The notes under the pieces were generated by a model, which saw only the letters and a program-made list of their open reading frames with translations, ran no database searches and was not told the origin of the DNA. The translations under genes were made by a program, and so were the position numbers. Source: Sphaerobacter thermophilus DSM 20745 (GTDB taxonomy: Bacteria; Chloroflexota; Chloroflexia; Thermomicrobiales; Thermomicrobiaceae). Taken from it: 64,000 nucleotides of DNA. Below are positions 2,074-62,933 of this stretch, one piece after another (position 1 is the stretch's first letter; every line of letters starts with the position of its first letter). The stretch spans positions 1,054,001 to 1,118,000 of the forward strand of contig NC_013524.1 in assembly GCF_000024985.1 (NCBI RefSeq), written 5' to 3'.

Positions 2074-3402
2074 ATGGTGGGCGTGGAAGTGGCGATCATC
2101 CTGGTGCTGCTAGGGATCAACGCGGTCCTGGCAGCTTCGGAGATCGCCATTGTGTCGGCGCGCAAGACACGCTTGCGCGCCCTGGCGGACGACGGCAACG
2201 AGGCGGCCGCGCAAGTCCTCGCCTTGAATGAGAACCCCAGCGCGTTCCTCGCCACCATCCAGGTGGGGATCACCCTCGCCGGCTTCTTCTCGTCGGCCGT
2301 GGGCGCGGTCAGCCTGGTGCAGCTCCTGGGTTCCTGGCTGGCGGACAGCGGGGTGCCGTTCATCCAGAGCAACGCGGACGGGCTGGCGCTGGTCGTCGTC
2401 ACCGCCGCGATCTCGTTCATCAGCATCATCTTCGGCGAGCTCGTCCCCAAGACGCTGGCTGTCCGACGGGCGGACACCCTGGCGCTCATCGTCGTGCGGC
2501 CGGTCCAATGGCTGGCGACGATGATGCGGCCGGTCGTGGCCCTGCTGACCGCCACGACCAACGTCATCCTGCGACTCCTCCGCGTGGAGAGCCGAGCCTC
2601 GCTCCCCGGCCTGACCGCCGACGAGTTACTCGCCATGCTGGAGACCGCAGAGGACGAGGGCCTCGTCGAGGCCGAGGAGGCCGAACTGATCGAGGAGGCG
2701 TTCCAGTTCGGCCAGACCACCGTCCGCAGCGTGATGGTCCCGCGGGTCGACGTGGTTGCACTGGAGGCATCGACCACGCTCGGTGAGGCGGTCGACCGCT
2801 TCTTCACGACCGGCTTCTCCCGCATCCCGGTCTACCAGGAGTCGCTGGATGCCATCGTCGGGATCCTCTACGTCAAGGACGTCTTCCGTATCCTCTGGAC
2901 CGACCCCGATGCGGCGAAGCGGCGCTGTGGGGAGGTCGTGCGACCGGCGTACTTCGTGCCGGACGCCAAGCCGATCGACGAGCTGCTGCGCGAGCTGCGC
3001 GCCCGGCACACGCACATGGCGATCTGCGTCGACGAGTTCGGCGGCACGGCCGGCCTGGTCACCCTGGAAGACCTGATCGAAGAGTTGGTCGGTGAGATCA
3101 CCGACGAGTTCGACCCGGGCTACGAGCCGTTCCGCGAGGTTGCCCCGGGGGTGCTGGAGGTCGACGGGCGCGTCTCGGTCGGGGACCTGCTCGACCGCCT
3201 CGAGCTCGAGCGGGAGGTGATCGGCCCGTTCGAGACGGAGTCGGTCGGCGGGTTGATCACCGACCGGCTGGGGCGCATCCCGGTCCAGGGGGACGCAGTC
3301 GTGACCGGGCCGCTGCGGCTCACTGTCCTCTCGATGACCGGACACCGCCCGGGCCGCGTGCGCGTCACCTTCACCGAAGAGCCGGAGGGGAACGGGCGGT
3401 AG
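2074..3402 (+). CDS. CNNM/CorC-type membrane protein (DUF21, CBS pair, CorC_HlyC)
   Basis: A 442-residue membrane protein. Residues about 1-190 form the DUF21 transmembrane domain (ASEIAIVSARKTRL, IIFGELVPKTLAV). A CBS pair follows at about 205-330 (MVPRVDVVAL, GFSRIPVYQ, ICVDEFGGTAGLVTLEDLIE). The C-terminus is a CorC_HlyC transporter-associated domain. The family is often called hemolysin-like but is now linked to magnesium or cobalt homeostasis. The start ATG 2074 lies 66 bases after the preceding gene on the same strand. No toxin function should be inferred from the older family name. Confidence 0.9.
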   Translation: MVGVEVAIILVLLGINAVLAASEIAIVSARKTRLRALADDGNEAAAQVLALNENPSAFLATIQVGITLAGFFSSAVGAVSLVQLLGSWLADSGVPFIQSNADGLALVVVTAAISFISIIFGELVPKTLAVRRADTLALIVVRPVQWLATMMRPVVALLTATTNVILRLLRVESRASLPGLTADELLAMLETAEDEGLVEAEEAELIEEAFQFGQTTVRSVMVPRVDVVALEASTTLGEAVDRFFTTGFSRIPVYQESLDAIVGILYVKDVFRILWTDPDAAKRRCGEVVRPAYFVPDAKPIDELLRELRARHTHMAICVDEFGGTAGLVTLEDLIEELVGEITDEFDPGYEPFREVAPGVLEVDGRVSVGDLLDRLELEREVIGPFETESVGGLITDRLGRIPVQGDAVVTGPLRLTVLSMTGHRPGRVRVTFTEEPEGNGR

Positions 3403-3453
3403 GGGTGAGGAGCGCCCGATGCTGGTGGTGCGACGGTTCCCACACCGTGGCAC

Positions 3454-3479
3454 GTGCCCGGGGGTTTACCCCCGGGCAC
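3454..3479. repeat. REP-like palindrome, copy 1
   Basis: A perfect inverted repeat has arms GTGCCCGGGGG (3454-3464) and CCCCCGGGCAC (3469-3479) around a TTTA loop. An identical copy lies at 51968-51993 and variants at 15926, 16028 and 48251. It follows the CorC-type gene. The rest of the 3403-3767 gap shows no coding signal. Confidence 0.8.
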
Positions 3480-3767
3480 CCACCCGGCGGGTGAGCTCCT
3501 AATACCCGCGTGTCATCCCTGTTCCCCGTACCCCCGCATCGCGGCGGGCTCCGCTTGCACCCGAACAGCCTGCGTGCGGGCATCAGATTCCCCCGAAGGT
3601 CGTGCCGTATCATGGTGACCATATCTCGTCACGCTGTGTGGTAGGCCGAGCCGCGCCGCATCGCACTCTCCGCCGTTCGGCGAGCTGCTACAATCCCACA
3701 TCGTCCCCTTGAGGCAAAGGGAGCGCATTGATGCCGGGCTGGAGCTGAGGAGAAGGGAGCGGACCCG

Positions 3768-4217
3768 ATGGGTCGGGCCGAACGGTCGGTCCTCATCATC
3801 GGCCTGGGAGTGCTCGGGCTTGTGGTCTTGGCCGTGGTAGCTGCACTGGCACTGGGCTCGACCGAGCCCACCCGGTTCCCCGAGGGCTCGCCCGAGGATG
3901 TCTTGCAGCGCTATCTGATTGCGGTCGAGGAGGGCCGGGCCGAGGAGGCGTACGACCACCTCTCCGCCCGGGCGCGGGAGGACATGAGCTTCCGCGATTT
4001 CTCCCGGTACGTGGCCACTGCCGGGCAGTACCCGTCCGAGCGGCGTGTGCGGATCGACCGGGCGGTGGGAGACGGCGACCGGGTGACGCTCTACCTGACG
4101 GTCGAGTTCTTCTACGGGTCAGGCATCGACTTCAACCGCTCGACATACGAGCGTCCGGTGCGCATGGTGCGGGAGGACGGCGTGTGGAAGGTCGACGAGC
4201 CGCTAACCGTGCTGTAA
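3768..4217 (+). CDS. membrane-anchored NTF2-like / DUF4878-like small protein
   Basis: A 149-residue protein with one N-terminal membrane segment (about residues 8-30, LIIGLGVLGLVVLAVVAA). A compact extracytoplasmic domain follows. Its pattern (SPEDVLQRYLIAVEEGRAEEAYDHLS early, VWKVDEP at the end) resembles the lumazine-binding-like DUF4878/NTF2 fold, in which a helix pair packs on a curved sheet. Function is unknown; such domains often bind small ligands or cell-wall components. It lies 61 bases before the next membrane gene and could be co-transcribed with it. Confidence 0.6.
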   Translation: MGRAERSVLIIGLGVLGLVVLAVVAALALGSTEPTRFPEGSPEDVLQRYLIAVEEGRAEEAYDHLSARAREDMSFRDFSRYVATAGQYPSERRVRIDRAVGDGDRVTLYLTVEFFYGSGIDFNRSTYERPVRMVREDGVWKVDEPLTVL

Positions 4218-4278
4218 CAGGCACGGTGCCCTGCATGGGCGGCGGTGCTCGGGCCGGGAACAGGTAGGGAGTGCCGAG

Positions 4279-5931
4279 GTGCAGATCGCACGGCGACTCT
4301 ACATCTACTTCATCGCGGCCGTGTCGCTCGCGATGCTCGCCGTGGGCCTGATGAACCTGCTGCGCATCGGGCTGGCGCAGATCGCCATCGCGCTGGGGTG
4401 GTCGGAGGTGATCCTCGAACCCGGCGAGGCGATCCGCCGTCAGGTCAGCCTCTGGGCCGCGGTGTCGATCGTCGCGCTGCCGGTCTGGCTGCTCCACTGG
4501 TGGCTGGCCGAGCGAGCAGCTTTGCGGCCGGACGCGGAGGGAGAGGCCGAGCGCGGCTCGACCGTGCGCGCGCTCTACGTGAGCGCGGTGCTGGCTGGAT
4601 CCTTCATCGCCTGGTTCTTCGCGGGAACCGCTCTCGTGCGGCGTCTGTTGGGGGAGGTGCTGGACGCGCCGGAGCCGACCGGTAGTCTCGCCGGCCCGCT
4701 GGCCCTCGTCTTGGTTTCCGCGAGCATCTGGGTCTACCATGCCGGGGTGCGACGGGGCGATGCTGCCGCGGTGGAGATGCGGGGCGCAGCCGCCTGGGCG
4801 CCGCGGCTCTACCGCTACGCGGCGGCCTTCATCGGAGCGCTCCAGCTCCTCTTTGAGCTGGGAACGCTCTTCCGGCTGATTATCGAGGTGCTGCTCCCGC
4901 AGGAGACGATCCTCCCGGCCGATACCTGGTGGCGCGGTCTCCTGGCCGCTGGAGTGGCGAGTGTGGTCGTGGGTCTGCTCGCCTGGGCCGGGCATTGGGG
5001 CGCCTCGCTGGAGTTACTTCGGCAGCCTGGGTGGCGCGGGCTGAGCGAGCGCGCGTCGGTCCTTCGGCGCGCGTACCTGTACGTGATGATCCTGGTCGGG
5101 GTGGTGGCGACGCTGGGCTTCACCGCGGTGTTCCTCAACGAGGCATTCGCGTGGGCCCTCGGGGTGGCACCGCGTCCGGCCGGTGACGCGCTCGCCCGGC
5201 GGCTGCTCGACCCGCTGGCGCGGGCGCTCCCCTTCGCCGCGGCCTGGGCCTACCACCGGCGGATTGTGCTGGCCGAGGCGGCCACGATGACCGAGGCGCC
5301 ACTGCAGGCATCTGTGCGCCGCATCTACACGTACGGTGTTGCCTTCGTCGGGCTCGGCTTCGGCAGTGTCGGGCTGGCGTACCTTCTGGGGTTGCTTCTG
5401 GACGCGGTGCTCGGGGGTACCCGCGTCGTGACGGCCCCACCCGACTGGTGGCGGCGGCAGGTGGCGCTGTTCGTCGCCCTGACGCTGGTCGGCACCGGTG
5501 CCTGGCTCTGGCACTGGTATACGGCGGCGCGGCGGGTCTCAGCCGACCCGGCCGGTGAGCGCGGCGCAACAACGCGCCGTGTCTACCTCTTCGCCACGCT
5601 GGCGGCGTCGCTAGTCGCGGTGCTGGTGAGCCTCGCCGTCACGCTCTACCGGATCCTGACCGTGCTCCTCGGGGTAGGGTCCGCCCGGGGAGTGGTGTCC
5701 GACGTCAGCGCCGCGCTCGGTGTCTTCGTGGTGGCGGCGGCACTGCTCGCCTACCACGGCATGGTCCTTCGGGACGACCTGCGCGAGCGCCGGGCGGAGG
5801 CGGTCGGCGAAAAGGTTCTTCCCCTGCTGCTGACCGGACCGCCCGACGCGGACCTGGCGGGCGTTCTCGACAACCTGCGGGACCACCTGCCCGAGGGGTA
5901 CACGTTGCGGCCCCGTATTGAGCGCGAGTAG
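4279..5931 (+). CDS. multi-repeat integral membrane protein (DUF5671-like)
   Basis: A 550-residue protein of about 15 predicted membrane segments, built from recurring modules. Each module opens with a motif like RRLYIYF, RLYRYAAAF, RAYLYVMI, RIYTYGVAF or RRVYLFAT. Several contain W-W-R followed by a segment ending in a WLLHWW-, WLWHWY- or WAGHWG-like motif. This pattern fits the DUF5671 family, whose function is unknown. The start is GTG 4279. A short cytosolic tail (GPPDADLAGVLDNLRDHLPEG) closes the protein. It follows the small anchored protein on the same strand. Confidence 0.7.
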   Translation: MQIARRLYIYFIAAVSLAMLAVGLMNLLRIGLAQIAIALGWSEVILEPGEAIRRQVSLWAAVSIVALPVWLLHWWLAERAALRPDAEGEAERGSTVRALYVSAVLAGSFIAWFFAGTALVRRLLGEVLDAPEPTGSLAGPLALVLVSASIWVYHAGVRRGDAAAVEMRGAAAWAPRLYRYAAAFIGALQLLFELGTLFRLIIEVLLPQETILPADTWWRGLLAAGVASVVVGLLAWAGHWGASLELLRQPGWRGLSERASVLRRAYLYVMILVGVVATLGFTAVFLNEAFAWALGVAPRPAGDALARRLLDPLARALPFAAAWAYHRRIVLAEAATMTEAPLQASVRRIYTYGVAFVGLGFGSVGLAYLLGLLLDAVLGGTRVVTAPPDWWRRQVALFVALTLVGTGAWLWHWYTAARRVSADPAGERGATTRRVYLFATLAASLVAVLVSLAVTLYRILTVLLGVGSARGVVSDVSAALGVFVVAAALLAYHGMVLRDDLRERRAEAVGEKVLPLLLTGPPDADLAGVLDNLRDHLPEGYTLRPRIERE

Positions 5932-6146
5932 CCGACACCGCTCGGCCGGCTACCGGTGCGGCTCCCTACGCGCGAACGCCTGGACCAGGTAATCGGCCTG
6001 GCGCCGGGCGCACCAACACCGGCCATCTCCAGATCACGGGATTACGCCGTGCGAATCACCTAGGGGGCATTCTCGATAGCGACTGGACGGTCTCAAGGCA
6101 GACGAAGCGCGGTGCTGTGCGCTGCGTAGCAGAGGCAGTGGCTCGC

Positions 6147-6177
6147 CCCCGCCCGGGTGCCGCCAACCCGGGCGGGG
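6147..6177. terminator. 12-bp GC hairpin between convergent genes
   Basis: CCCCGCCCGGGT (6147-6158) pairs perfectly with ACCCGGGCGGGG (6166-6177) over a 7-base loop, followed by ATTCTTAC. It lies in the 378-base gap between the repeated membrane protein (plus) and the stress operon (minus) and probably ends transcription, although the T tract is weak. No gene is supported elsewhere in 5932-6309. Confidence 0.5.
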
Positions 6178-6309
6178 ATTCTTACGACTTACCCGCCGCT
6201 ACCAGGGCGCGAATCGGGGTTCCTCACTAACGTCGAGAGTAACAGCATCACCGTCGTACGACGACGCACGGCGCTGCTCGGGCCACCGGGCTGCGGCGGG
6301 CCCGGCTTG

Positions 6310-6591
6310 TCAGTAGGGCCACTCCGGGTCGTCGTGGCGGGGCTTGCCCTGCTCGTCATAGGAACCCGGCTCCTGGCCGGTGGAGTGGACGCCCATCCCC
6401 TGGCCCGAGCCGAAGCCGCCAGCCGTCTTCCTGGTCGTCGGGTCGAGCAGGTCGTCCGGGTCGCGCTCTGCGGCGGCGCGGCGCTCCCGCACCTGGGTGA
6501 TCTCGTCGGCCTGCTGCCGGGTGATGCGCCCCTCGGCAACGAGCTGGTCCAGCTCGGCGTCCGACAGGGTCAGAAGCTGCTCTCGATCCAT
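6310..6591 (-). CDS. small hydrophilic protein, unknown function
   Basis: A 93-residue acidic protein. The N-terminus MDREQLLTLSDAELDQLVAE, continuing GRITRQQADEI, is a short helical segment resembling SHOCT-like or oligomerisation motifs. The rest is glycine-rich and probably disordered (GGFGSGQGMG) and ends in DDPEWPY. A GGAG site lies before ATG 6591. It is the last gene of a four-gene minus-strand cluster with the hibernation-factor-like and PRC-barrel genes, which suggests a stress-linked role; this is only contextual. Confidence 0.65.
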   Translation of the reverse strand: MDREQLLTLSDAELDQLVAEGRITRQQADEITQVRERRAAAERDPDDLLDPTTRKTAGGFGSGQGMGVHSTGQEPGSYDEQGKPRHDDPEWPY

Positions 6592-6622
6592 GATGCGTTC
6601 TCCTCTCCCGGGTGCCGTTGGG

Positions 6623-7084
6623 TTAGACCACCGGGAAGTCCATGCGGTCGATCTGGGTGGACGGCACATCGAGGATCAGCCGGTCCCCGAGGATGTCGTT
6701 GATCAGGTCGAAGGGGACATAGACGTCGAGCTTGCCGGGACGGTTAAGGATGAACCGGTCCCCCTCGACGGCGGCGACCTGGCCGATCGTCTCCCTGTCC
6801 GATCCCTCGACTGCCATGCCCGGTGTGGGCATGATCTCGCGGAACGGGGCGTAGAGGTCGGTCGTGGGCGGGCTCGAATTGGAGACCTCCCGGGCCTTGA
6901 GCATCAGCGTGACGACGCCGTTTGCCACCTCGCGCACGGCCGTGAAGGGCAACACACGCGGCGGCTCGAGGTCGCGCCGGATGAGGAACGCATCCTCTCC
7001 GACCCGCTCGACCCGGCCGACCGTCACGCGATCGGCGCCGACGACCTCCATGCCGGGCCTGATCTGCTCGCCGTTGATACTCAT
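6623..7084 (-). CDS. DUF2171 / PRC-barrel-like protein
   Basis: A 153-residue protein made of two similar halves. Each begins with a G-M-x-V-x-G-x-D-x-x-T-I/V-G-x-V pattern (GMEVVGADRVTVGRVERVG and GMAVEGSDRETIGQVAAVEG) and ends in a short beta segment (RVLPFTAVREV, VYVPFDLIND). This matches the DUF2171/PRC-barrel fold found in many stress-related bacterial proteins. ATG 7084 has GGGAGG upstream; a longer frame begins at 7096. It is the third gene of the operon. No enzymatic residues are visible. Confidence 0.75.
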   Translation of the reverse strand: MSINGEQIRPGMEVVGADRVTVGRVERVGEDAFLIRRDLEPPRVLPFTAVREVANGVVTLMLKAREVSNSSPPTTDLYAPFREIMPTPGMAVEGSDRETIGQVAAVEGDRFILNRPGKLDVYVPFDLINDILGDRLILDVPSTQIDRMDFPVV

Positions 7085-7121
7085 AGTTCCTCCCATCGGC
7101 CCTGCGTGCCGGGAGCGCCGC

Positions 7122-7424
7122 TTACTCCTGAGTGCGGCGCTTGCTCGACCCGCCTCCCATGCCCCCGCCGGTTGTGCCGCCAGCGGGGACGTTGGTCTGC
7201 CCCGGCGGGATCTTGTGGGCGGTGTGGCGCGGGTCGTGGCGGGGCGGGCGCTGTATGTCGCCGTGGCTGCGGTCCCGCCGCTCCCGGGTCAGCATCTCCC
7301 ACGCGGCCTGAGGGTCGGTCCGCAGGAGATCTTTGGCCGACACGACAGGGTTCTCGTCGAGCTGAGGGTTCTCCTTAGGAGGGTCCTCAGGGTGCTGCCA
7401 CGGATTCTTGATGTCATCCGACAT
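7122..7424 (-). CDS. small low-complexity protein, unknown
   Basis: A 100-residue hydrophilic protein. It begins MSDDIKNPWQHPEDPPKENP and ends in a glycine-rich basic tail (GGTTGGGMGGGSSKRR). No family is recognised. Its ATG at 7424 overlaps the stop of the upstream hibernation-factor-like gene by 11 bases, so the two are likely translationally coupled. Composition points to a disordered, perhaps nucleic-acid-binding or desiccation-related protein, but nothing in the sequence proves this. Confidence 0.6.
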   Translation of the reverse strand: MSDDIKNPWQHPEDPPKENPQLDENPVVSAKDLLRTDPQAAWEMLTRERRDRSHGDIQRPPRHDPRHTAHKIPPGQTNVPAGGTTGGGMGGGSSKRRTQE

Positions 7425-7824
7425 CGGCGTCCTCCGATCCCTGCTCGATCGTCCCCTGCTTCATCTCGCGCAGCCGGGCTTCACGCTCAGCCAGTCCCTC
7501 TGACTGCGCACGCCGGATCTCCGGCTCGCGCTGGAGGTCTGCAAGGTACCGATCCACCTGATCGTAGAGGTCGTGGAAGGCGCGGCGGATTGCGTAGCCC
7601 AGCGTATCGGCGTGCCCGTCGGCCGCGATCTGCTGCGTCGGCCCACGGAACAGCAGCCGTGCCCGATAGCTGTTGGTCTTGTCGTGGTAGTGCAATGCCA
7701 CGTCGAGCATCTTCAGGTCGTCGGCGGTGTTCGCGAACCGGCGCTCGAGCAGCCGCGCCTTCCGGCGGACCAGCGCCTGCGCCGTCTCCACATGGGCGGC
7801 GTTCCCATGGAACCGGTACTGCAT
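7414..7824 (-). CDS. HPF/RaiA-like ribosome-associated protein
   Basis: A 136-residue protein. The pattern RARLLFRGPTQQIAADGHAD followed by TLGYAIRRAFHDLYDQVDRYL is like the beta-strand/helix end of the S30EA/HPF fold. The first half (MQYRFHGNAAHVETAQALV, RRKARLLERRF) fits the first strand and helix. HPF proteins bind the small subunit and silence ribosomes under stress. The long C-terminal extension of the dimerising HPF type is absent; an acidic helical tail is present instead. First gene of the four-gene minus-strand operon. The family call is moderate. Confidence 0.55.
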   Translation of the reverse strand: MQYRFHGNAAHVETAQALVRRKARLLERRFANTADDLKMLDVALHYHDKTNSYRARLLFRGPTQQIAADGHADTLGYAIRRAFHDLYDQVDRYLADLQREPEIRRAQSEGLAEREARLREMKQGTIEQGSEDADVG

Positions 7825-8058
7825 CGTGGACCTCTTCTCGTGTGTCGGCGGGCGGGGGTTCCGCCTACCGTTCCCTCTCCGTAGACCGTAGGCGCGGCCC
7901 CGAGAGGTGCTGGGGGCGCCTCACCCTCATCCTGCCCGAGGAGTCGTGGAAAGTGCGCCCAATCCGGGCGAGGCGGCGTGACAACCTTGTGCCATGTGCG
8001 GTGGAACGCCCGTTGTTACGCAGTTGCAACGGTCCGCACGGCGGAAGCGTCGCCTCTG

Positions 8059-8249
8059 TTGCAAGTCGCCGCGTATCCTGCTCATAGCATCCAGGCGGCA
8101 CGACGTGGCTCGACACGCTGCCGTGGCCCCGGAAGGCACCACCAACCATCGTCGCACCGTGGGTGCCACAACTGGATGCCCCGCAAACGTGCAGGCCCTT
8201 CCCTTCCCGAGCCGCGCCACGGGCGTCCCCACCCGTGGCGCGGCTTTTT
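8059..8249 (+). ncRNA. candidate small RNA ending in an intrinsic terminator
   Basis: The gap 7825-8289 has no credible gene but contains a strong plus-strand terminator at 8210-8249. A possible promoter is TTGCAA (8059-8064) with TCATAG 17 bases on (8082-8087). The stretch between can form a hairpin at 8096-8125 (CGGCA...TGCCG with inner CGTG/CACG) and a GGCACC/GGTGCC pairing. The RNA would be about 155 bases. It does not match 6S, SRP, tmRNA or RNase P landmarks that I can see. The call rests on the orphan terminator. Confidence 0.35.
8210..8249 (+). terminator. rho-independent terminator with no upstream plus-strand ORF
   Basis: AGCCGCGCCACGGG (8210-8223) pairs with CCCGTGGCGCGGCT (8232-8245) over an 8-base loop, followed by TTTTT to 8249. 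The T tract exists only for plus-strand transcription; the flanking protein genes are both on the minus strand. Confidence 0.75.
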
Positions 8250-8289
8250 GGTCGGTTCGACTGTGGGATTCAGGTGTGCAGGGGCAGCG

Positions 8290-54309: not shown

Positions 54310-55665
54310 GTGCTGCGGGGCTGGCTGGCTGAAACCGCGCGTCGCGCACCGCGCGGCGATGCGATCACGCGCGGCTGGGCGGTGGTGACCGGCGGCAGCG
54401 CCGGTCGCTTGCTTCTGGGCTTCGTCTCCAGTGTGCTGCTGGCCCGCGCGCTCGGCCCGGCCGGGCTCGGCGTCTTCAGCGTCCTCGGCGCCGTGACCCT
54501 GCTGGCCGGAGCGGTGGCCGACTTCGGGGTGAGCAACGCGGCTGTGCGCCGCATCGCTGCCGTCTGGCCGGCCGACCGACCGGCTGCCGTTGCAAGGGGT
54601 CAGGCCTTCTTCTGGGTCCGGATGGTGCTGGCGCTGGCGACGGCTGCCCTGGTGGGGCTGCTGGCCGCTGGGCCAATCGGGGCTTCGCTGCACCTGCCGC
54701 GCGACGCCACGCTCATCTGGCTGGCGGTGCTGGGTGTGCCGGCGACGGCGTTGAGCGGCGCGGTGACCGTGCTGCTCCAGGCCACGGGGCGCTTCGGGCG
54801 ACTCTCGCTGGTGTTCCTCTTCAATGCCGGGTTGACGACACTGCTGGCAGCGGCGCTGTGGCTGCTCGGCTGGCTGACGGTGGGGACCGCGCTCGGCGTT
54901 CTGGGCATCGGCACCTCGCTGGCATCGTTCGTGGTGGCCCGGCGCCTCCTGGGACCGGGCTGGCCGCTGCGCCTCCCCGGGTGGGCGACGCTGTGGGTGG
55001 AAGCGCGGCACCTGCTCGGCTTCGGGGTGTGGCTCTGGCTGGCGAGCCTGTTCGGGCTCGCAGCGGCACGGCTCGACCTGCTACTGGTCAACCGCTGGGT
55101 CGACCCGACGGCCGTCGGCACGTATGCGCTGGCGACCAACCTGGCGAGCAAGGTGGAGATCGTCAACCACAGCCTGTACACCGTGTTGCTGCCGGTGGCG
55201 GCGACGCTGCGCGGGCGCCCGGCTGTCCGCCGCTACGTACGGGACAGCCTGCTGCGCGCTTCGGCCGCCGGGCTCGCGCTGGTACCGGCCGTGGCGCTGG
55301 CTCGTCCGGCGATCGTGCTCGTGTACGGCGCGGACTACGGCGGAGCGGCGCCCCTCCTTCAGGGACTGCTGATCGTGACGCTGCTCGAGATCGTCGCGAC
55401 GCCGCTACTGCTCCTGACCATCACCGCCGACCGGCCGCGAGTGTTTGCCGGAGCCGAGGGGCTGCGCGCCGCCGTGCTCCTGGGTGTCGGAGCCTGGCTG
55501 ATCCCGGTTTTCGGACCGGGCGGGGCTATCGCCGCCCGGTTGATCGCCCGGGCGGTGTCGGTGGCGGTGGCGCTCGCTCTGCTGGCGCGGCGTGGGTCGG
55601 CACTGGTGCCGGATAGCGCTGGCCCGGCGCCTATGCCCGGTCGTGGGGAGGGCACGGGCACCTAG
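54310..55665 (+). CDS. polysaccharide/lipid-oligosaccharide flippase (MATE-like, Wzx family)
   Basis: A 451-residue protein with about 12-14 segments (GWAVVTGGSAGRLLLGFVSS at the start, a conserved loop GPAGLGVFSVLGA, and the central NRWVDPTAVGTYALATN). It would move undecaprenyl-linked sugars across the membrane. GTG 54310 has GGGAGGG. Its 3' end overlaps the convergent glycosyltransferase gene by 35 bases, which suggests a polysaccharide-related pair. Confidence 0.82.
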   Translation: MLRGWLAETARRAPRGDAITRGWAVVTGGSAGRLLLGFVSSVLLARALGPAGLGVFSVLGAVTLLAGAVADFGVSNAAVRRIAAVWPADRPAAVARGQAFFWVRMVLALATAALVGLLAAGPIGASLHLPRDATLIWLAVLGVPATALSGAVTVLLQATGRFGRLSLVFLFNAGLTTLLAAALWLLGWLTVGTALGVLGIGTSLASFVVARRLLGPGWPLRLPGWATLWVEARHLLGFGVWLWLASLFGLAAARLDLLLVNRWVDPTAVGTYALATNLASKVEIVNHSLYTVLLPVAATLRGRPAVRRYVRDSLLRASAAGLALVPAVALARPAIVLVYGADYGGAAPLLQGLLIVTLLEIVATPLLLLTITADRPRVFAGAEGLRAAVLLGVGAWLIPVFGPGGAIAARLIARAVSVAVALALLARRGSALVPDSAGPAPMPGRGEGTGT

Positions 55666-56776
55666 GGGTCTGGTAGAGCTTCTCCAAGGCGGCAACGGTG
55701 TGCGCCATCGTGTAGCGCGACGCCACGGCCTCCAGGGCTGCGCGACGCATGGCGTGGCGTTGTGCCGGGTCGGCGAGCACGTCGCGCAGCGCGGCCGCCA
55801 GCGCGGCCGGGTGTCCCGGCGGCACCGTGCGCGCCGCCGGCCCAAGGTCGGGCAGCATCCCGACGGCGGTCCCCACGACCGGCAGTCCGCACGCGGCAGC
55901 TTCCAGCACCACCATCGCCTGGGCCTCGTAGCGCGATGACAGCACGAGCAGATCGGCCGCGCGGTAGAGCGCGGGCAGGCAGTCGTGCGCGACGGCACCG
56001 CGGAACGTGATCCGGTCCCCGATTCCGAGCCTGGCTCCCAGCGCGTCGAGGTCGCTCCGCAGCGGGCCTTCCCCAACGATGTCCAGGTGGAGGCCGGGGA
56101 AGGACCGCGTCAAGAGAGAGCAGGCGCGGAGCAGTGTCGCCTGATCCTTGACCGGCACCAGCGAGGCGACATGGAGCAGGCGGGGTCCGTCGCTCCGGCT
56201 CGGGGTCGCGGCCGGGGTGAAGAGCTCGGTGTCGACCCCGAGCGGCAGCAGCGTGGGCCTCCGGTGCGGGACGTGTCGCGCTGCGAGGTGCGCCAGCGTG
56301 GTCGACCCGGCGGTGACATGGGTCGCGCGTCGCAGTGCCACCCGGGCCAGCCAGCGGTTGAGCCGGCTCGCCTGACCACCGTACCCGATGTCCCGCAGGT
56401 GTACCAGTTCACCCCCGGCGAGTGAGACGACGGTCGGGATGCCCAGCCGGTGCCCGGCGGCGACGGCGACGAAGCCCGGCTCATCCGCCCAGAGGGCGTG
56501 CAGCACGTCGAACGGCTCGGTGTGGTGCGCTCGCACCACGGTGGCCATGGCGCGGCGCAACAGGGGCAGCCGCGCCGCACCGCGGGCGTTGCCGCCTCCA
56601 ATGGGAAAGACCGCAGCCTGATCTACAACATACGGGCGAGCCGCGAAGGGGTAGCGCAGCGGGAAGACCCGCACGTCGTGCCGGGCCGCGAGGGCACGGA
56701 CGAGCGTCAGCAGCACTGGGATCGCCCAGTCTCGATCGCTGGCACTGAATGCTGGAAGGATCAGCCCGATCTTCAT
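55631..56776 (-). CDS. GT4-family glycosyltransferase
   Basis: A 381-residue GT-B fold enzyme. The N-terminal domain begins MKIGLILPAFSASDRDWAIP; the second domain has LLHVASLVPVKDQATLLRAC and the nucleotide-sugar loop SRYEAQAMVVLEAAACGLPV (EX7E-type glutamates). ATG 56776 with GGGAG. The tail overlaps the flippase gene by 35 bases on the opposite strand. The 147 bases upstream (56777-56923) show nothing. Confidence 0.88.
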   Translation of the reverse strand: MKIGLILPAFSASDRDWAIPVLLTLVRALAARHDVRVFPLRYPFAARPYVVDQAAVFPIGGGNARGAARLPLLRRAMATVVRAHHTEPFDVLHALWADEPGFVAVAAGHRLGIPTVVSLAGGELVHLRDIGYGGQASRLNRWLARVALRRATHVTAGSTTLAHLAARHVPHRRPTLLPLGVDTELFTPAATPSRSDGPRLLHVASLVPVKDQATLLRACSLLTRSFPGLHLDIVGEGPLRSDLDALGARLGIGDRITFRGAVAHDCLPALYRAADLLVLSSRYEAQAMVVLEAAACGLPVVGTAVGMLPDLGPAARTVPPGHPAALAAALRDVLADPAQRHAMRRAALEAVASRYTMAHTVAALEKLYQTPRCPCPPHDRA

Positions 56777-58368: not shown

Positions 58369-61300
58369 TCAGCTGGCGTAGAGGGACCAGGATCGCGGAA
58401 CTGTGGGCCGCGCGGCCTTGTGGCGGTACATGCGCTGGTCGGCCACGGTGATCAGCTCGACCGGCCGGTCACCGTCGGCAGGGTACGCAGCCGCGCCGAG
58501 CGAGATCGACGGTAACGGCAGCGTCCGGCCGTTTGCCTCGAACGTGCCGGAGGCGATGGCCTCAATCAGACGGTCGCCGAAGCGCACGGCCTCGGCCTGG
58601 TCCATCCCGGGGAGGATGATGGCGAACTCATCGCCGCCGCAGCGTGCGACCGTGTCCTGGCGGCGGCACTCATGCCGCAGCGTCGCGGCGATCGCGCGCA
58701 GGGCGGCGTCGCCCGTGATGTGGCCGTGCGTGTCGTTGGTGGCCTTTAGCCCGTCGACGTCGATCATGATGACGGCCAGCGGTTCATCGTTCGCCTTCGC
58801 GGCGTTGAGCGCCTCCTCCAGCCGCTCGTAGAGCGTCCGGTGGTTCGCGACGCCGGTCAGGCTGTCGAGCATGGCACTGCGCTTGACCTGATCGTGCAGT
58901 TGCGCCACCTCGATGACCTGCGCCAGTTGCTGGGCGATGATCGTCAGGAGCGCCTCGTCGTTCTCGGTGAAGACGCCCACGCGGCGGCTCTCGAGGCTGA
59001 TCACCCCGATGGTACGACCGTCAATCGCGAGCGGCACCGCCAGCGCCGAGCGCATCGGCGAAGTCGCCATGCTCATGGTACGAACGTCGTTGTGGGTATC
59101 GGCGACACGCGCCGGCGTCTGGTAGCGCGCCACCCAGCCGACCAGCCCCTGACCGGCAGGGACGCGGACCCCGGTGACGGCACCCGGTCCCGGCGTCTGT
59201 CCGAGGAGGTCGCCCGTCTCCGGATCGACCAGGTAGAGCTCCAGGTGGCCGACGCCGATCTCGCGTCGGAGGAGGTCGGTGACGTCGGTGATGAAGGCGC
59301 TGAGGTCGGTTACACCACCGATCATCTGAGCGACCTTGTAGACGATGTGCATTGCCCGGGCGTCGACCGCGGTGATGCGCCCGGCCATCGGGTCGCGGTT
59401 CGGCAGTACCACCGGGGAGACGTTCTGCTGGGGATGCTCCGGCCAGTCGCCCCGGTCGAGCGTCCGCAGGAAGGCGGCAACGACGCGCGGGTTGAACTGG
59501 GTGCCGCTGCAGCGCAGGATCTCAGCCCGTGCCGGTTCGCGCCCCGGAGCCTTGCGGTACGGCCGGTCGGTCGTCATGGTGTCGTAGGTGTCCGCGACGG
59601 CGATGATCGCTGCCCCGAGCGGGATGTCGTCGCCGCTCAACCCATCGGGGTACCCGCTGCCGTCGTACCACTCATGGTGGTGCCGCACGAGGGGCACCAG
59701 CGGCATCAGGGCGAGGTTGTCCGCAAGGATCTTCGCCCCAAGGGCCGCGTGCTCCATGATGAGTGCGCGCTCGTCGGGGTCGAGGCGCCCGGGCTTCTGC
59801 AGCACCAGGTCGGGCACGCCGATCTTGCCGATGTCGTGCAACAGGCCGGCCAGCTCGATCGTCTCGACCTCAAGCTGCGGCAGACCCAGCTCGACGGCGA
59901 TGGCGCGGGCGTAGGCCGCCACGCGCTCCGAGTGGCCGCGCGTGTAGGAATCCTTGGCGTCGACCGTCGCCGCCAGCGTACGGATACCGGAGAGGTAGAG
60001 ATCGCGCATGCGGCCGTAGAGCTGAGCGTTCTCGGTCGCGATGGCGAGCTGGTTGGCGACGGTGCTCAGCAGCGCCTGGTCCTCGCTGGTGTAGGGGAGA
60101 TCCACCCGCTTCGGGCCCAACGTGAGCAACGCCACAGCCTGACCCTTGTTGATCAACGGGACGATCAAGGCTTCGTCGGCCGGATCCACGTCCAGGTTCT
60201 GCACCGGACCTTCCGCCTCCTGCACGGCCTCCACCACCGAGTGGTGCGGGCCGAGGGTCTGGTCTTCCGGGTCAGGCTCAATGCCGACCCAGGTCCAGAG
60301 GTGGTAGGAGCGCATTGCCGGGTCGTAGAGGTAGAGCCGGACGTGGGTGGCGCCCATCGTCTGGGAGATCAACTGCACAGTGGAGTCGGCCAGCTCATCC
60401 GGATCCAGGATGCCGTTCATGCGCTGGCTGAACTCCAGGAGTTGCTGTCGGTAGTCGTAGCTGCGGCGGTCGAAGAGCCGGTCAATCTGGCGCTGCACCG
60501 CGTGGCGCAGGCGATCGCCACCGAGGGCGAAGACGGCGCTCATGATCGCCACAGCGACGACGCTGCTGGCGCCGGTCTGGTCCTTGGCGAACAGGGTGGC
60601 CGCGAAGAGGAGCAGCGCGTAGGCGCCGGTGATGAGTGCCACCAGGGTCGAGTAGACCACCCCGCGCCGGATGTAGAGCCGCAAGTCCATGATCTGGTAG
60701 CGCAGGATGGCGTAAGCGAAGGAAGCGGGGAGCAAGATGAGTGCGTGGAGGGTCACCTCAGGCGACACGATGTCCCGGCCGAGTACCAGCCGAGGGATCA
60801 GACTCAACGTGAGGAACGGGGCAACGGCGATCACGCTCCCCAGCATGACGATTCGGAGTTGGACTCGCTCCCGTCCAGCCCTTGACTTCCACCAGCTATA
60901 CAGAAAAGCGGTCGCTGCTATGGCGAGACAAGCGCCGTAGTACGCATAGAAAATCGGTTGCAGTTGGAAATAGACATTGGAATTCACCGCCGTCGTAGCG
61001 ACGAACAGGGCCGATACCGGCAGAGATGAAATCGGAACCACACTCGGCGAAACGCTCCGTCCACCGACGAACACACGTCGGTTGACGGGGAAAACAAGCG
61101 AAAGGTAGGCGACGCTGCTCAGAGCTAACGGCAAGAAGATCCCATGGAGCACCAGCGCCGGCCGCCATTGCCAGTATCCGGCGACACTTACGATGATCTC
61201 AATGGCGCCGGCATAACAGACCAGGGCAAGCGCGAAGGGCGCTGTCCCTCGCCCGTAGAGGAAGGCTATCAACCCCAGGAGGACCGCACTCGCGCTGATA

Positions 61301-61710
61301 ATGGCAAAGGAAACGCGGTTCGGTGCGCGCGTGGCCGCATCTGCGACAAACGGCTCCGTTCCTGCTGCAGGTTGGATCTCTACGCGCGACGACTGCTCGA
61401 TGGCCAGCGCTTCGGATGGCTCCCCAGTCGTCAGCCCGGTCCCGTCAACCCCGATCACGCTGTCGCCGGGCTGGATGGGAAGTTCCGATGCGGGACTGAT
61501 CGGAGAAACCCGTGTCACGCGCCATTCACTGGTGGTCGTGTCCCAGGCAACGGACAGACCAAGCCGGGGCGGCTCCGACGTGTTCCACATCACGAGGAAC
61601 AGCACGATGAGGTACGCGGAGAGACAACCGCCCGCGATCCAAAGCCGGTGCCTGAGGTTGAAATTCACGATGGCTGTGCCCACCTTGTCGCGGCTCGGTG
61701 TCCACTTCAC
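58369..61710 (-). CDS. ComP-like membrane receptor with GAF, HD-GYP, GAF and GGDEF output
   Basis: A 1,113-residue receptor. Order: TM1 (about 24-43), an extracytoplasmic PDZ-like domain (about 50-120, VSPISPASELPIQPGDSVIG), about seven more segments to residue 400 (LPASFAYAILRYQIMDLRLY, typical of ComP-like receptors), GAF1 (about 430-570), HD-GYP with HDIGK at 625-629 and GSGYPDGL, GAF2 (about 790-930), and GGDEF at 1025-1029. Both cyclic-di-GMP synthesis and degradation motifs look intact. Start GTG 61710, three bases after the prenyltransferase-like gene. The N-terminal coding part has lower GC than the rest. The usual ComP kinase domain is replaced by the cyclic-di-GMP modules. Confidence 0.9.
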   Translation of the reverse strand: MKWTPSRDKVGTAIVNFNLRHRLWIAGGCLSAYLIVLFLVMWNTSEPPRLGLSVAWDTTTSEWRVTRVSPISPASELPIQPGDSVIGVDGTGLTTGEPSEALAIEQSSRVEIQPAAGTEPFVADAATRAPNRVSFAIISASAVLLGLIAFLYGRGTAPFALALVCYAGAIEIIVSVAGYWQWRPALVLHGIFLPLALSSVAYLSLVFPVNRRVFVGGRSVSPSVVPISSLPVSALFVATTAVNSNVYFQLQPIFYAYYGACLAIAATAFLYSWWKSRAGRERVQLRIVMLGSVIAVAPFLTLSLIPRLVLGRDIVSPEVTLHALILLPASFAYAILRYQIMDLRLYIRRGVVYSTLVALITGAYALLLFAATLFAKDQTGASSVVAVAIMSAVFALGGDRLRHAVQRQIDRLFDRRSYDYRQQLLEFSQRMNGILDPDELADSTVQLISQTMGATHVRLYLYDPAMRSYHLWTWVGIEPDPEDQTLGPHHSVVEAVQEAEGPVQNLDVDPADEALIVPLINKGQAVALLTLGPKRVDLPYTSEDQALLSTVANQLAIATENAQLYGRMRDLYLSGIRTLAATVDAKDSYTRGHSERVAAYARAIAVELGLPQLEVETIELAGLLHDIGKIGVPDLVLQKPGRLDPDERALIMEHAALGAKILADNLALMPLVPLVRHHHEWYDGSGYPDGLSGDDIPLGAAIIAVADTYDTMTTDRPYRKAPGREPARAEILRCSGTQFNPRVVAAFLRTLDRGDWPEHPQQNVSPVVLPNRDPMAGRITAVDARAMHIVYKVAQMIGGVTDLSAFITDVTDLLRREIGVGHLELYLVDPETGDLLGQTPGPGAVTGVRVPAGQGLVGWVARYQTPARVADTHNDVRTMSMATSPMRSALAVPLAIDGRTIGVISLESRRVGVFTENDEALLTIIAQQLAQVIEVAQLHDQVKRSAMLDSLTGVANHRTLYERLEEALNAAKANDEPLAVIMIDVDGLKATNDTHGHITGDAALRAIAATLRHECRRQDTVARCGGDEFAIILPGMDQAEAVRFGDRLIEAIASGTFEANGRTLPLPSISLGAAAYPADGDRPVELITVADQRMYRHKAARPTVPRSWSLYAS

Positions 61711-61713
61711 GGG

Positions 61714-62616
61714 TCAGCCTACCAGTTCTCGGAGCTCACTAATGCACTGCCCTCGTTGTGCGAGGCGCTCCAGTGCGTCCAGTGCCGCTTGTCGTTCAAG
61801 ACCAATGACGACCTGGGTGAATGCGAGCGCGGCCTGCCCCTGATCCTCCCCGGTCAGTACGCCGGGAATGGTTCGAGCAGCATTGCTGCCATCCTGGAAG
61901 GCCCGAACCACTGTGCGCTTCTGCAGGCGGACGTCGCTCTTGGTAATCGTATCCAAAGCGTCCTGTGCGTCGTTAGCCAACTGCCCCATCGTGCCCAAAT
62001 GGCGTCCAAACTCCGCATAGATATCCAGAAGTTCCGTGTTCTCGGTCCCGCACATGGCTCCGAGACGACAGGCGACTGCGCCAAGTTCGCCTGCTTTGCT
62101 CCTGGCAATCTCAAATGCCTTATTCACGTCGACCGAAGCGAGACCCTCACTAGCTAGATCCATGTGTTGGCCCGCCGCAGCTTTCAGCGCGTACTGGGAG
62201 AGCGTTCGACAGAAGTCCGGCACGCGATGCGCGGGGATCTCGGTGCCACCGAGCCTAGCCAGACACTCTTGGGCTAGCATCAAGAGCGCGCTAGCCACGT
62301 TGGCAGCCTGACCTAGACTGGAGGCCGTGACCACCGCCGAAGCGTCACCATCCTCGATCTCATCGAAGAGATCGGCCGCAGCAACAAAAAGCTCCACTGC
62401 TGCCGCTACTCGAGCGGTCGCGGCCTGTGCACCTCCCGCTGCCCGCGACGCTGCACATACCAACATTACCCAGCGCGGGGACGGTGCTCCCCCCAAAACC
62501 TTTCCGGGCTGGCGGAGCGGCAGGTAAAGCAGATCGCGGAACGAATCCGGCCCGGAGTTCTCATCAATGGCGGTCCGAATCTCTTGACCGACCAGTGAGA
62601 AAAGCTCCGGGCACAT
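61714..62616 (-). CDS. ComQ-like isoprenyl transferase (polyprenyl synthetase family)
   Basis: A 300-residue all-helical protein with the trans-isoprenyl synthase landmarks in weakened form: the first Asp-rich motif D-E-I-E-D (85-89, in LFDEIEDGD), the GQHMDL helix (149-154), Lys174 in SKAGELGAVACRLGAMC, and the second motif N-D-A-Q-D (215-219, in GQLANDAQD). DEIED/NDxxD rather than DDxxD/DDxxD is the pattern expected of ComQ-type enzymes that prenylate a peptide. ATG 62616 with a weak ribosome site; 38 bases after the peptide gene. Predicted to attach a prenyl group to the peptide tryptophan. A general prenyl diphosphate synthase is the alternative. Confidence 0.8.
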   Translation of the reverse strand: MCPELFSLVGQEIRTAIDENSGPDSFRDLLYLPLRQPGKVLGGAPSPRWVMLVCAASRAAGGAQAATARVAAAVELFVAAADLFDEIEDGDASAVVTASSLGQAANVASALLMLAQECLARLGGTEIPAHRVPDFCRTLSQYALKAAAGQHMDLASEGLASVDVNKAFEIARSKAGELGAVACRLGAMCGTENTELLDIYAEFGRHLGTMGQLANDAQDALDTITKSDVRLQKRTVVRAFQDGSNAARTIPGVLTGEDQGQAALAFTQVVIGLERQAALDALERLAQRGQCISELRELVG

Positions 62617-62654
62617 ACGATCTCGTTTCTTAGAGCGCGTTCACTACAGGGGGG

Positions 62655-62864
62655 CTATGCCCACCACCCCAACGTCCCGATCGGGGCGGCGTTGAACTTG
62701 GGGCCGCTGGCGAGCTGCAGGCAGAGCTTGCTCAGCGCCGCATGCTCAGCAGCACCCAGGCGGTACTCGCTCAGCGCCGCCGCCGAATCCTCGATCGCAC
62801 GGGCACGGAACTCTGCGTCGGTGAAAAGACGTCGCACGACAGTCTCAACGGTTCGTAGATCCAC
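62655..62864 (-). CDS. candidate pheromone/RiPP precursor peptide ending in GWWA
   Basis: A 69-residue peptide. The first 45 residues (VETVVRRLFTDAEFRARAIE, then DSAAALSEYRLGAAEHAALS) look like the helical leader of Nif11/Franean-type RiPP precursors and of ComX. The C-terminus is GPKFNAAPIGTLGWWA with Trp67 and Trp68. ComX precursors are 50-75 residues with a C-terminal-proximal tryptophan modified by ComQ. Start GTG 62864 has AAGGGAGGT five bases upstream. It is first of the three-gene operon with the prenyltransferase and receptor. No other function is apparent. Confidence 0.75.
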   Translation of the reverse strand: MDLRTVETVVRRLFTDAEFRARAIEDSAAALSEYRLGAAEHAALSKLCLQLASGPKFNAAPIGTLGWWA

Positions 62865-62887
62865 GGTAACCTCCCTTGAACCAAAGC

Positions 62888-62933
62888 GGATACGTTGCCC
62901 CTATTGTACCGTATCCAACCCAACTGTACGCAA
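62888..62933 (-). promoter_or_regulatory. promoter and dyad of the signalling operon
   Basis: TACAAT (62908-62903) is a good -10 on the minus strand, with TTGCGT (62933-62928) 19 bases upstream. GGATACG (62888-62894) and its inverted complement CGTATCC (62910-62916) form a 7-bp perfect dyad with 15-base spacer, spanning the -10 and predicted start (about 62896). The placement suggests a repressor or feedback operator. Confidence 0.5.

Follow-up and report, generated by a model that had tools for sequence, protein, structure and literature searches.

A putative prenyl-peptide quorum-sensing operon with a cyclic-di-GMP receptor output in Sphaerobacter thermophilus

Comparison with described systems

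In the comQXPA quorum-sensing system of Bacillus, the receptor ComP is modelled with ten transmembrane (TM) helices, the first two of which flank a PDZ domain (PMC9620489). A census from 2014 found no comQXPA-like loci outside Firmicutes (PMC4008528). In Paenibacillus alvei, the enzyme PalQ prenylates PalX, an NHLP precursor with a C-terminal tryptophan (Trp), in vitro, and a histidine kinase gene lies alongside (PMC10853753). Regarding inputs into cyclic di-GMP (c-di-GMP), a 2022 review reports direct evidence for two quorum-sensing receptors, for the fatty acid BDSF and for autoinducer 2 (AI-2), and for no peptide receptor (PMC8846402). Here we analysed a 64,000-nucleotide stretch (the window) of Sphaerobacter thermophilus DSM 20745, a heat-loving soil bacterium with a genome of two replicons (3,993,764 bp). 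It contains three genes on the minus strand, encoding a small peptide (X), an isoprenyl-synthase-like enzyme (Q) and a ComP-like receptor (P). An earlier inspection of the letters (hereafter the sequence-only reading) had proposed a tightly spaced operon, and the list of open reading frames (ORFs) bears out the gaps of 38 and 3 bases. We consider it probable that these genes form an operon for prenyl-peptide quorum sensing (or self-sensing) in which a c-di-GMP module has replaced the histidine kinase as the receptor output.

With Bacillus comQXPA the Sphaerobacter set shares the ComQ-type enzyme clade and a Trp third from the peptide end, W67 in X (PMC4008528, PMC5331326, PMC9620489), as well as the TM1-PDZ-multi-TM sensor and the divergence of enzyme, peptide tail and sensor. 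It differs in having the peptide gene first, an apparently NHLP-type leader instead of the Pfam ComX one, a c-di-GMP output with no histidine kinase, and a host outside Firmicutes. No ComA response regulator is encoded 3′ of the receptor, where the next genes code for a DUF6930 protein and a glycosyltransferase. The likeness to comQXPA seen in the sequence-only reading thus stands for the ComQ-type enzyme and the ComP-type sensor, but strict membership fails because there is no Pfam ComX match, no kinase and no ComA. The comQXPA-like loci of Desulfosporosinus have the same X-Q-P order, an enzyme of the same clade, a homologous sensor and peptides matching the profile of X, but their receptors are of the kinase type and are followed by a response-regulator-like gene.

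By description, the nearest arrangement is PalX-PalQ-PalP, which combines an NHLP-type precursor, a (near-)C-terminal Trp, a Trp prenyltransferase resembling trans-isoprenyl diphosphate synthases and a clustered receptor gene, as the Sphaerobacter set appears to do (PMC10853753). However, the output given for PalP is a histidine kinase, whereas the Sphaerobacter receptor has HD-GYP and GGDEF domains, and PalQ needs its Trp exactly at the C-terminus, whereas in X one residue follows the last Trp (PMC10853753). A quorum signal is also read directly by a c-di-GMP enzyme in BDSF-RpfR and in the AI-2-dCACHE diguanylate cyclase. There, fatty acid and AI-2 signals meet PAS9 or dCACHE sensors, whereas the Sphaerobacter system would use a ribosomal prenyl-peptide and a ComP-type sensor (PMC8846402).

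The claim that no described system has this wiring is in line with the 2022 review, which names no peptide receptor wired to c-di-GMP (PMC8846402). We found no later report of such a system in Chloroflexota in the open-access literature, and the Chloroflexota-wide X-Q-P family itself seems to be undescribed. If true, this would be the first case, as far as the literature found goes, in which a peptide pheromone feeds directly into c-di-GMP, and ComQ/ComP-type communication would reach from Firmicutes to Chloroflexota. With several outputs exchanged in nature behind a single sensor, receptor modularity would become directly testable in a cultivated type strain, and recognition of the prenyl-peptide through the PDZ domain and the C-terminus would be testable there as well.

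The precursor peptide and the predicted modifying enzyme

The leader of X appears to be of the NHLP/Franean1_4349 type of ribosomally synthesized and post-translationally modified peptides (RiPPs), judging by matches to NF038399 (E 3e-9, 37 bits, curated cut-off 40 bits) and PF14407 (E 3e-6, 28 bits, curated cut-off 48 bits). The sequence-only reading had the peptide ending in a Trp pair. The pair is there (W67-W68) but is not terminal, being followed by a single A69. The column of W68 is the only invariant one in the alignment of 20 homologous precursors, so that conservation of the Trp, on which that reading relied, holds for one near-terminal residue. This last Trp is second from the end in X, and the peptide of a relative, L038, ends in GGW. 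X is under purifying selection, with nonsynonymous divergence (dN) of 0.13 and synonymous divergence (dS) of 0.72. The ComX family PF05952 gave no match in X at E <= 1, although it does match ComX of Bacillus safensis and Natronobacillus. In hhalign, Chloroflexota-type peptides aligned to the Bacillus ComX leader, represented by two sequences, with an E value of 0.025 and a probability of 2%, and Desulfosporosinus peptides matched the profile of the X family at 1e-6.

Adjacent small ORFs with a Trp in the last eight residues accompany 29 of the 32 genes for enzymes with an N-D motif, as against 29 of 135 control genes (p 3e-13); at the other three loci the Trp is at position 11 or 12 from the peptide end. 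Conservation, dN/dS and these adjacency statistics exclude a chance small ORF as the explanation for X.

Q matches the Pfam polyprenyl_synt family (PF00348, E 1e-16), as its earlier description as isoprenyl-synthase-like implied. For ComQ activity the first motif must have D1 and D5 and the pseudo-second motif must begin with N/G-D, a change of N to D there drastically reducing geranylation (PMC5331326), and a Gln just upstream of the latter takes part in Trp recognition (2026 review, PMC13290415). All of these distinguishing residues have counterparts in Q, namely D85 and D89 (DEIED) and Q212, N215 and D216 (Q-L-A-N-D), and the active site therefore appears to be of the ComQ type and not of the diphosphate-synthase type. 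A tree of 49 proteins placed the N-D enzymes, including Q and ComQ of Bacillus safensis, in one group versus the housekeeping synthases (support 95/88). The AlphaFold model of Q, with a predicted local distance difference test score of 92, has the trans-prenyltransferase fold, and the fold-search matches include Ord1, a Trp farnesyltransferase. Q is probably a ComQ/PalQ-like tryptophan prenyltransferase, as predicted from these features.

Pfam and NCBIfam name Q only a polyprenyl synthetase, which would suit an ordinary isoprenyl diphosphate synthase that happens to share its operon with a small ORF and a gene for a c-di-GMP receptor, with no peptide prenylation. We regard this as very improbable given the N-D instead of D-D motif, the tree position, the Trp-ended peptide ORFs beside 29 of 32 such genes and the separate housekeeping synthase of the host genome, whose second motif is Q-V-Q-D-D. 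Both the N-D motif and the tree exclude Q itself as a housekeeping synthase.

A second enzyme group with a synthase-like D-D second motif (L040, L041, L045, L049, L070, L071, L195 and L053) adjoins kinase receptors and often peptide-like ORFs; its chemistry may differ. Two ComQ-like ORFs in genome G056 (L036, 6510-7895, and L196, 4562-5842) are continuous with a peptide-like N-terminus and are possible precursor-enzyme fusions.

The receptor

The sensor follows the plan of ComP, with TM1, the PDZ domain and then eight or nine TM helices. PF00595 matches the PDZ region weakly (0.0017), AlphaFold predicts a beta domain at residues 52-124, and the fold search returns PDZ matches; we propose this domain as the binding site for the peptide C-terminus. 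A hidden Markov model (HMM) built from Chloroflexota sensors only recovered ComP of Bacillus safensis at 5e-22, ComP of Lysinibacillus at ~5e-30 to 5e-33 and Desulfosporosinus receptors down to 8e-57. The third protein had been called ComP-like in the sequence-only reading, and the match of its sensor family to Bacillus ComP shows that the two are homologous. In the host genome the sensor has exactly one match, the gene adjoining Q. In one other class of Chloroflexota the enzyme gene adjoins 11 of 12 strong sensor matches, one being broken by an apparent transposase insertion, and the distances in the Q and sensor trees are correlated (r 0.91).

In a related genome (G322; L208, 5451-6212) the ComQ-like gene is split by an apparent IS3-type transposase ORF while the receptor is kept, possibly giving a signal-blind or eavesdropping strain. 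ComP-like receptors with no adjoining ComQ-like gene, at L190 (G114, 5941-8271) and L210 (G731, 3026-5431), are possible orphan listeners.

The cytoplasmic part contains two GAF domains, HD-GYP (3e-34) and GGDEF (1e-38), and Pfam detects no histidine-kinase domain (HisKA, HATPase) in the receptor. An output by HD-GYP and GGDEF in place of a kinase had been noticed before, and the catalytic motifs prove to be intact: HDIGK (625-629) and HHEWYDGSGYP (678-688) in the former, GGDEF (1025-1029) with the I-site RRQD (1016-1019; RRQD-x5-GGDEF) in the latter. A soluble paralogue on the first replicon of the host (L198, 495-3224), organised as GAF-GAF-HD-GYP-GAF-GGDEF, is 47% identical over ~560 residues to the output half, and this type of protein is a plausible donor of the swapped module. 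The host genome encodes nine GGDEF proteins and one PilZ protein, and therefore a c-di-GMP network exists.

GGDEF and HD-GYP domains can in general be degenerate or allosteric, and the receptor has two GAF domains. The peptide might accordingly be a true prenylated pheromone while the receptor chiefly senses c-di-GMP, acts as a scaffold or is driven by GAF ligands, with little direct effect of the peptide on c-di-GMP. We find this quite unlikely, as every catalytic and I-site motif is preserved and no segment is more conserved than HD-GYP (96%). Moreover, the histidine-kinase homologues have GAF-like regions too, placed between their sensor and kinase parts, and GAF1 may for that reason be a transmission part.

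The Chloroflexota-wide family and its outputs

Scanning the genome collection gave 45 loci. The family profile, with scoring limited to five candidates per genome, detected ComQ-like enzymes in at least ~27 of 400 Chloroflexota genomes, and the neighbourhood anticipated in related genomes was found, X, Q and P co-occurring widely. The peptide-first order, remarked on earlier as a difference, is real but is no oddity, since the genes usually run peptide, enzyme, receptor in both Chloroflexota and Desulfosporosinus. A second species, Sphaerobacter sp. Bu17, has the same set intact; this and the wide family exclude an oddity specific to the window. A third Sphaerobacter genome (G112) has a near-identical receptor on a contig that stops before the X and Q genes.

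Most X-Q-P systems end in histidine kinases, and HD-GYP is present in five sampled loci, in two Sphaerobacter species and three other lineages. The outputs of relatives are a NarL-type kinase with a response regulator, an orphan HisKA kinase, a hybrid kinase, or HD-GYP alone, the last in the three further lineages (L038/G530, G395 and G329). Mapping the outputs on the enzyme tree required four changes, at least three of which the supported branches make unavoidable. Uniting all c-di-GMP outputs in one clade was rejected (approximately unbiased test, p-AU 9e-7), which excludes one origin of the c-di-GMP output on the Q tree. The sensor tree required three changes and forces only at least two of them, and we therefore hold the claim to more than one change. 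Judging from these trees, the c-di-GMP wiring is one that was gained, or lost, more than once.

Five loci (L163, L165, L166, L168 and L170) have X-Q-P with large HisKA receptors, no obvious adjoining response regulator, and peptides with Trp-rich tails such as MWWWHP.

Divergence between Sphaerobacter species

Identity between S. thermophilus and Bu17, whose peptide ends in TSLGWWS, is low in TM1 plus PDZ (28%), TM2-6 (43%), Q (47%) and the peptide tail (53%), and high in the leader (87%), the last TM helices (84%), HD-GYP (96%), GGDEF (75%) and the flanking genes (69-90%). The dN values have the same profile, from 0.97 in TM1 plus PDZ to 0.03 in HD-GYP. In Bacillus, pherotype diversification accompanies striking ComQXPA polymorphism (PMC4408185). 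The parts expected to make or touch the signal would thus be the diverging ones, like in the Bacillus pherotypes.

This co-divergence of enzyme, peptide tail and sensor bears on whether the product is a signal at all. NHLP leaders typically belong to RiPP natural products, signalling is deduced here from sequence, and the accessible part of the PalX study demonstrates no signalling role for PalX (PMC10853753). X could thus be a prenylated RiPP with another job (e.g. antimicrobial or membrane-active) and the receptor a sensor of envelope or peptide stress and not of a pheromone. Besides the co-divergence, however, the three-gene set has no transporter, immunity or protease gene, its sensor is homologous to a known pheromone receptor, ComP, and this sensor is nearly confined to ComQ-like neighbourhoods, which makes the explanation unlikely.

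Proposed mechanism

We infer prenylation, export, sensing and catalysis from gene content, homologies, active-site residues, co-occurrence and output swaps. X would be made with its NHLP-type leader, which would dock on Q, and Q would use a prenyl diphosphate to attach a C10-C20 prenyl group to W67 or W68, like ComQ and PalQ. After removal of the leader, the lipidated tail would leave the cell by a route encoded outside the operon and bind to the receptor at its extracytoplasmic PDZ domain and the TM helices nearby. Binding would be relayed through the final TM helices and GAF1 to HD-GYP, perhaps also to GAF2-GGDEF, and c-di-GMP would change, with no phosphotransfer or response regulator required. 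Three other lineages have retained only HD-GYP, so the output most likely to be common to all is c-di-GMP hydrolysis under the control of a ligand.

It is fairly likely, in our judgement, that a ComP-type PDZ/multi-TM receptor detects a prenylated ribosomal pheromone and, needing neither kinase nor response regulator, synthesizes or degrades c-di-GMP itself, and that this wiring arose more than once in an undescribed Chloroflexota-wide X-Q-P family with exchangeable outputs (NarL-type kinase, HisKA kinase, hybrid kinase, HD-GYP, HD-GYP plus GGDEF). Several observations weigh against the prenyl-peptide operon with a c-di-GMP output. The NHLP profile matches of X are under the curated cut-offs, and the fold search against PDB with the whole sensor gave no close match, only PDZ domains and generic seven-TM proteins. 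The HD-GYP domain of L038 is off consensus (HDIAK, HHEWYNGSGYP), and a separate signal via the GAF domains is possible. The divergence pattern comes from one genome pair, and dS is also raised (1.8-1.9) in Q and in TM1 plus PDZ, so that recombination or old alleles could explain it.

Genomic context

Coordinates are collected in Table 1. A Shine-Dalgarno-like AGGGAGG (62870-62876) precedes the GTG start codon of X. Farther upstream there is a perfect inverted repeat, kept in Bu17 and present as a single copy in the 4 Mb host genome, and for these reasons a candidate dedicated operator of the operon. Inside it a -10-like TACAAT (62903-62908) was read in the segment conserved in Bu17. The promoter and terminator scan found no consensus promoter or terminator at the operon start, and no Rfam families were found within 50-64 kb of the window.

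Table 1. Features of the operon, in window coordinates
Feature	Position	Strand	Evidence and remarks
Putative signal-peptide precursor X	62655..62864	-	69 aa; ORF, NF038399/PF14407 profiles, homologue alignment, dN/dS
NHLP-type leader of X (putative)			~residues 1-47; variable tail beyond, C-terminus GTLGWWA
W67/W68 codons of X	62661-62666	-	
Predicted ComQ/PalQ-like Trp prenyltransferase Q	61714..62616	-	300 aa; PF00348, residues, tree, AlphaFold
Q first aspartate-rich motif (FARM), D85/D89	62350-62364	-	
Q pseudo-second aspartate-rich motif (pseudo-SARM), Q212-x-x-N215-D216	61969-61983	-	
P-like receptor, ComP-type membrane sensor and GAF-HD-GYP-GAF-GGDEF	58369..61710	-	1113 aa; Pfam, sensor HMM
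Whole membrane sensor (TM1, PDZ, 8-9 further TM helices)	60481..61710	-	
Extracytoplasmic PDZ between TM1 and TM2, residues 46-124	61339..61575	-	PF00595, AlphaFold, fold search, position as in ComP
GAF domain 1, residues 436-561	60028..60405	-	Pfam
HD-GYP phosphodiesterase domain, residues 580-742	59485..59973	-	Pfam, motifs
GAF domain 2, residues 801-934	58909..59310	-	Pfam
GGDEF diguanylate cyclase domain, residues 946-1100	58411..58875	-	Pfam, motifs
Inverted repeat GGATACG-N15-CGTATCC, possible operator, upstream of operon	62888..62916	.	Kept in Bu17

A polysaccharide flippase-like gene and a glycosyltransferase gene adjoin the operon (54310-56776), and both are also near the operon of Bu17 (L032). 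From these neighbours, a link of the operon to surface polysaccharide is possible.

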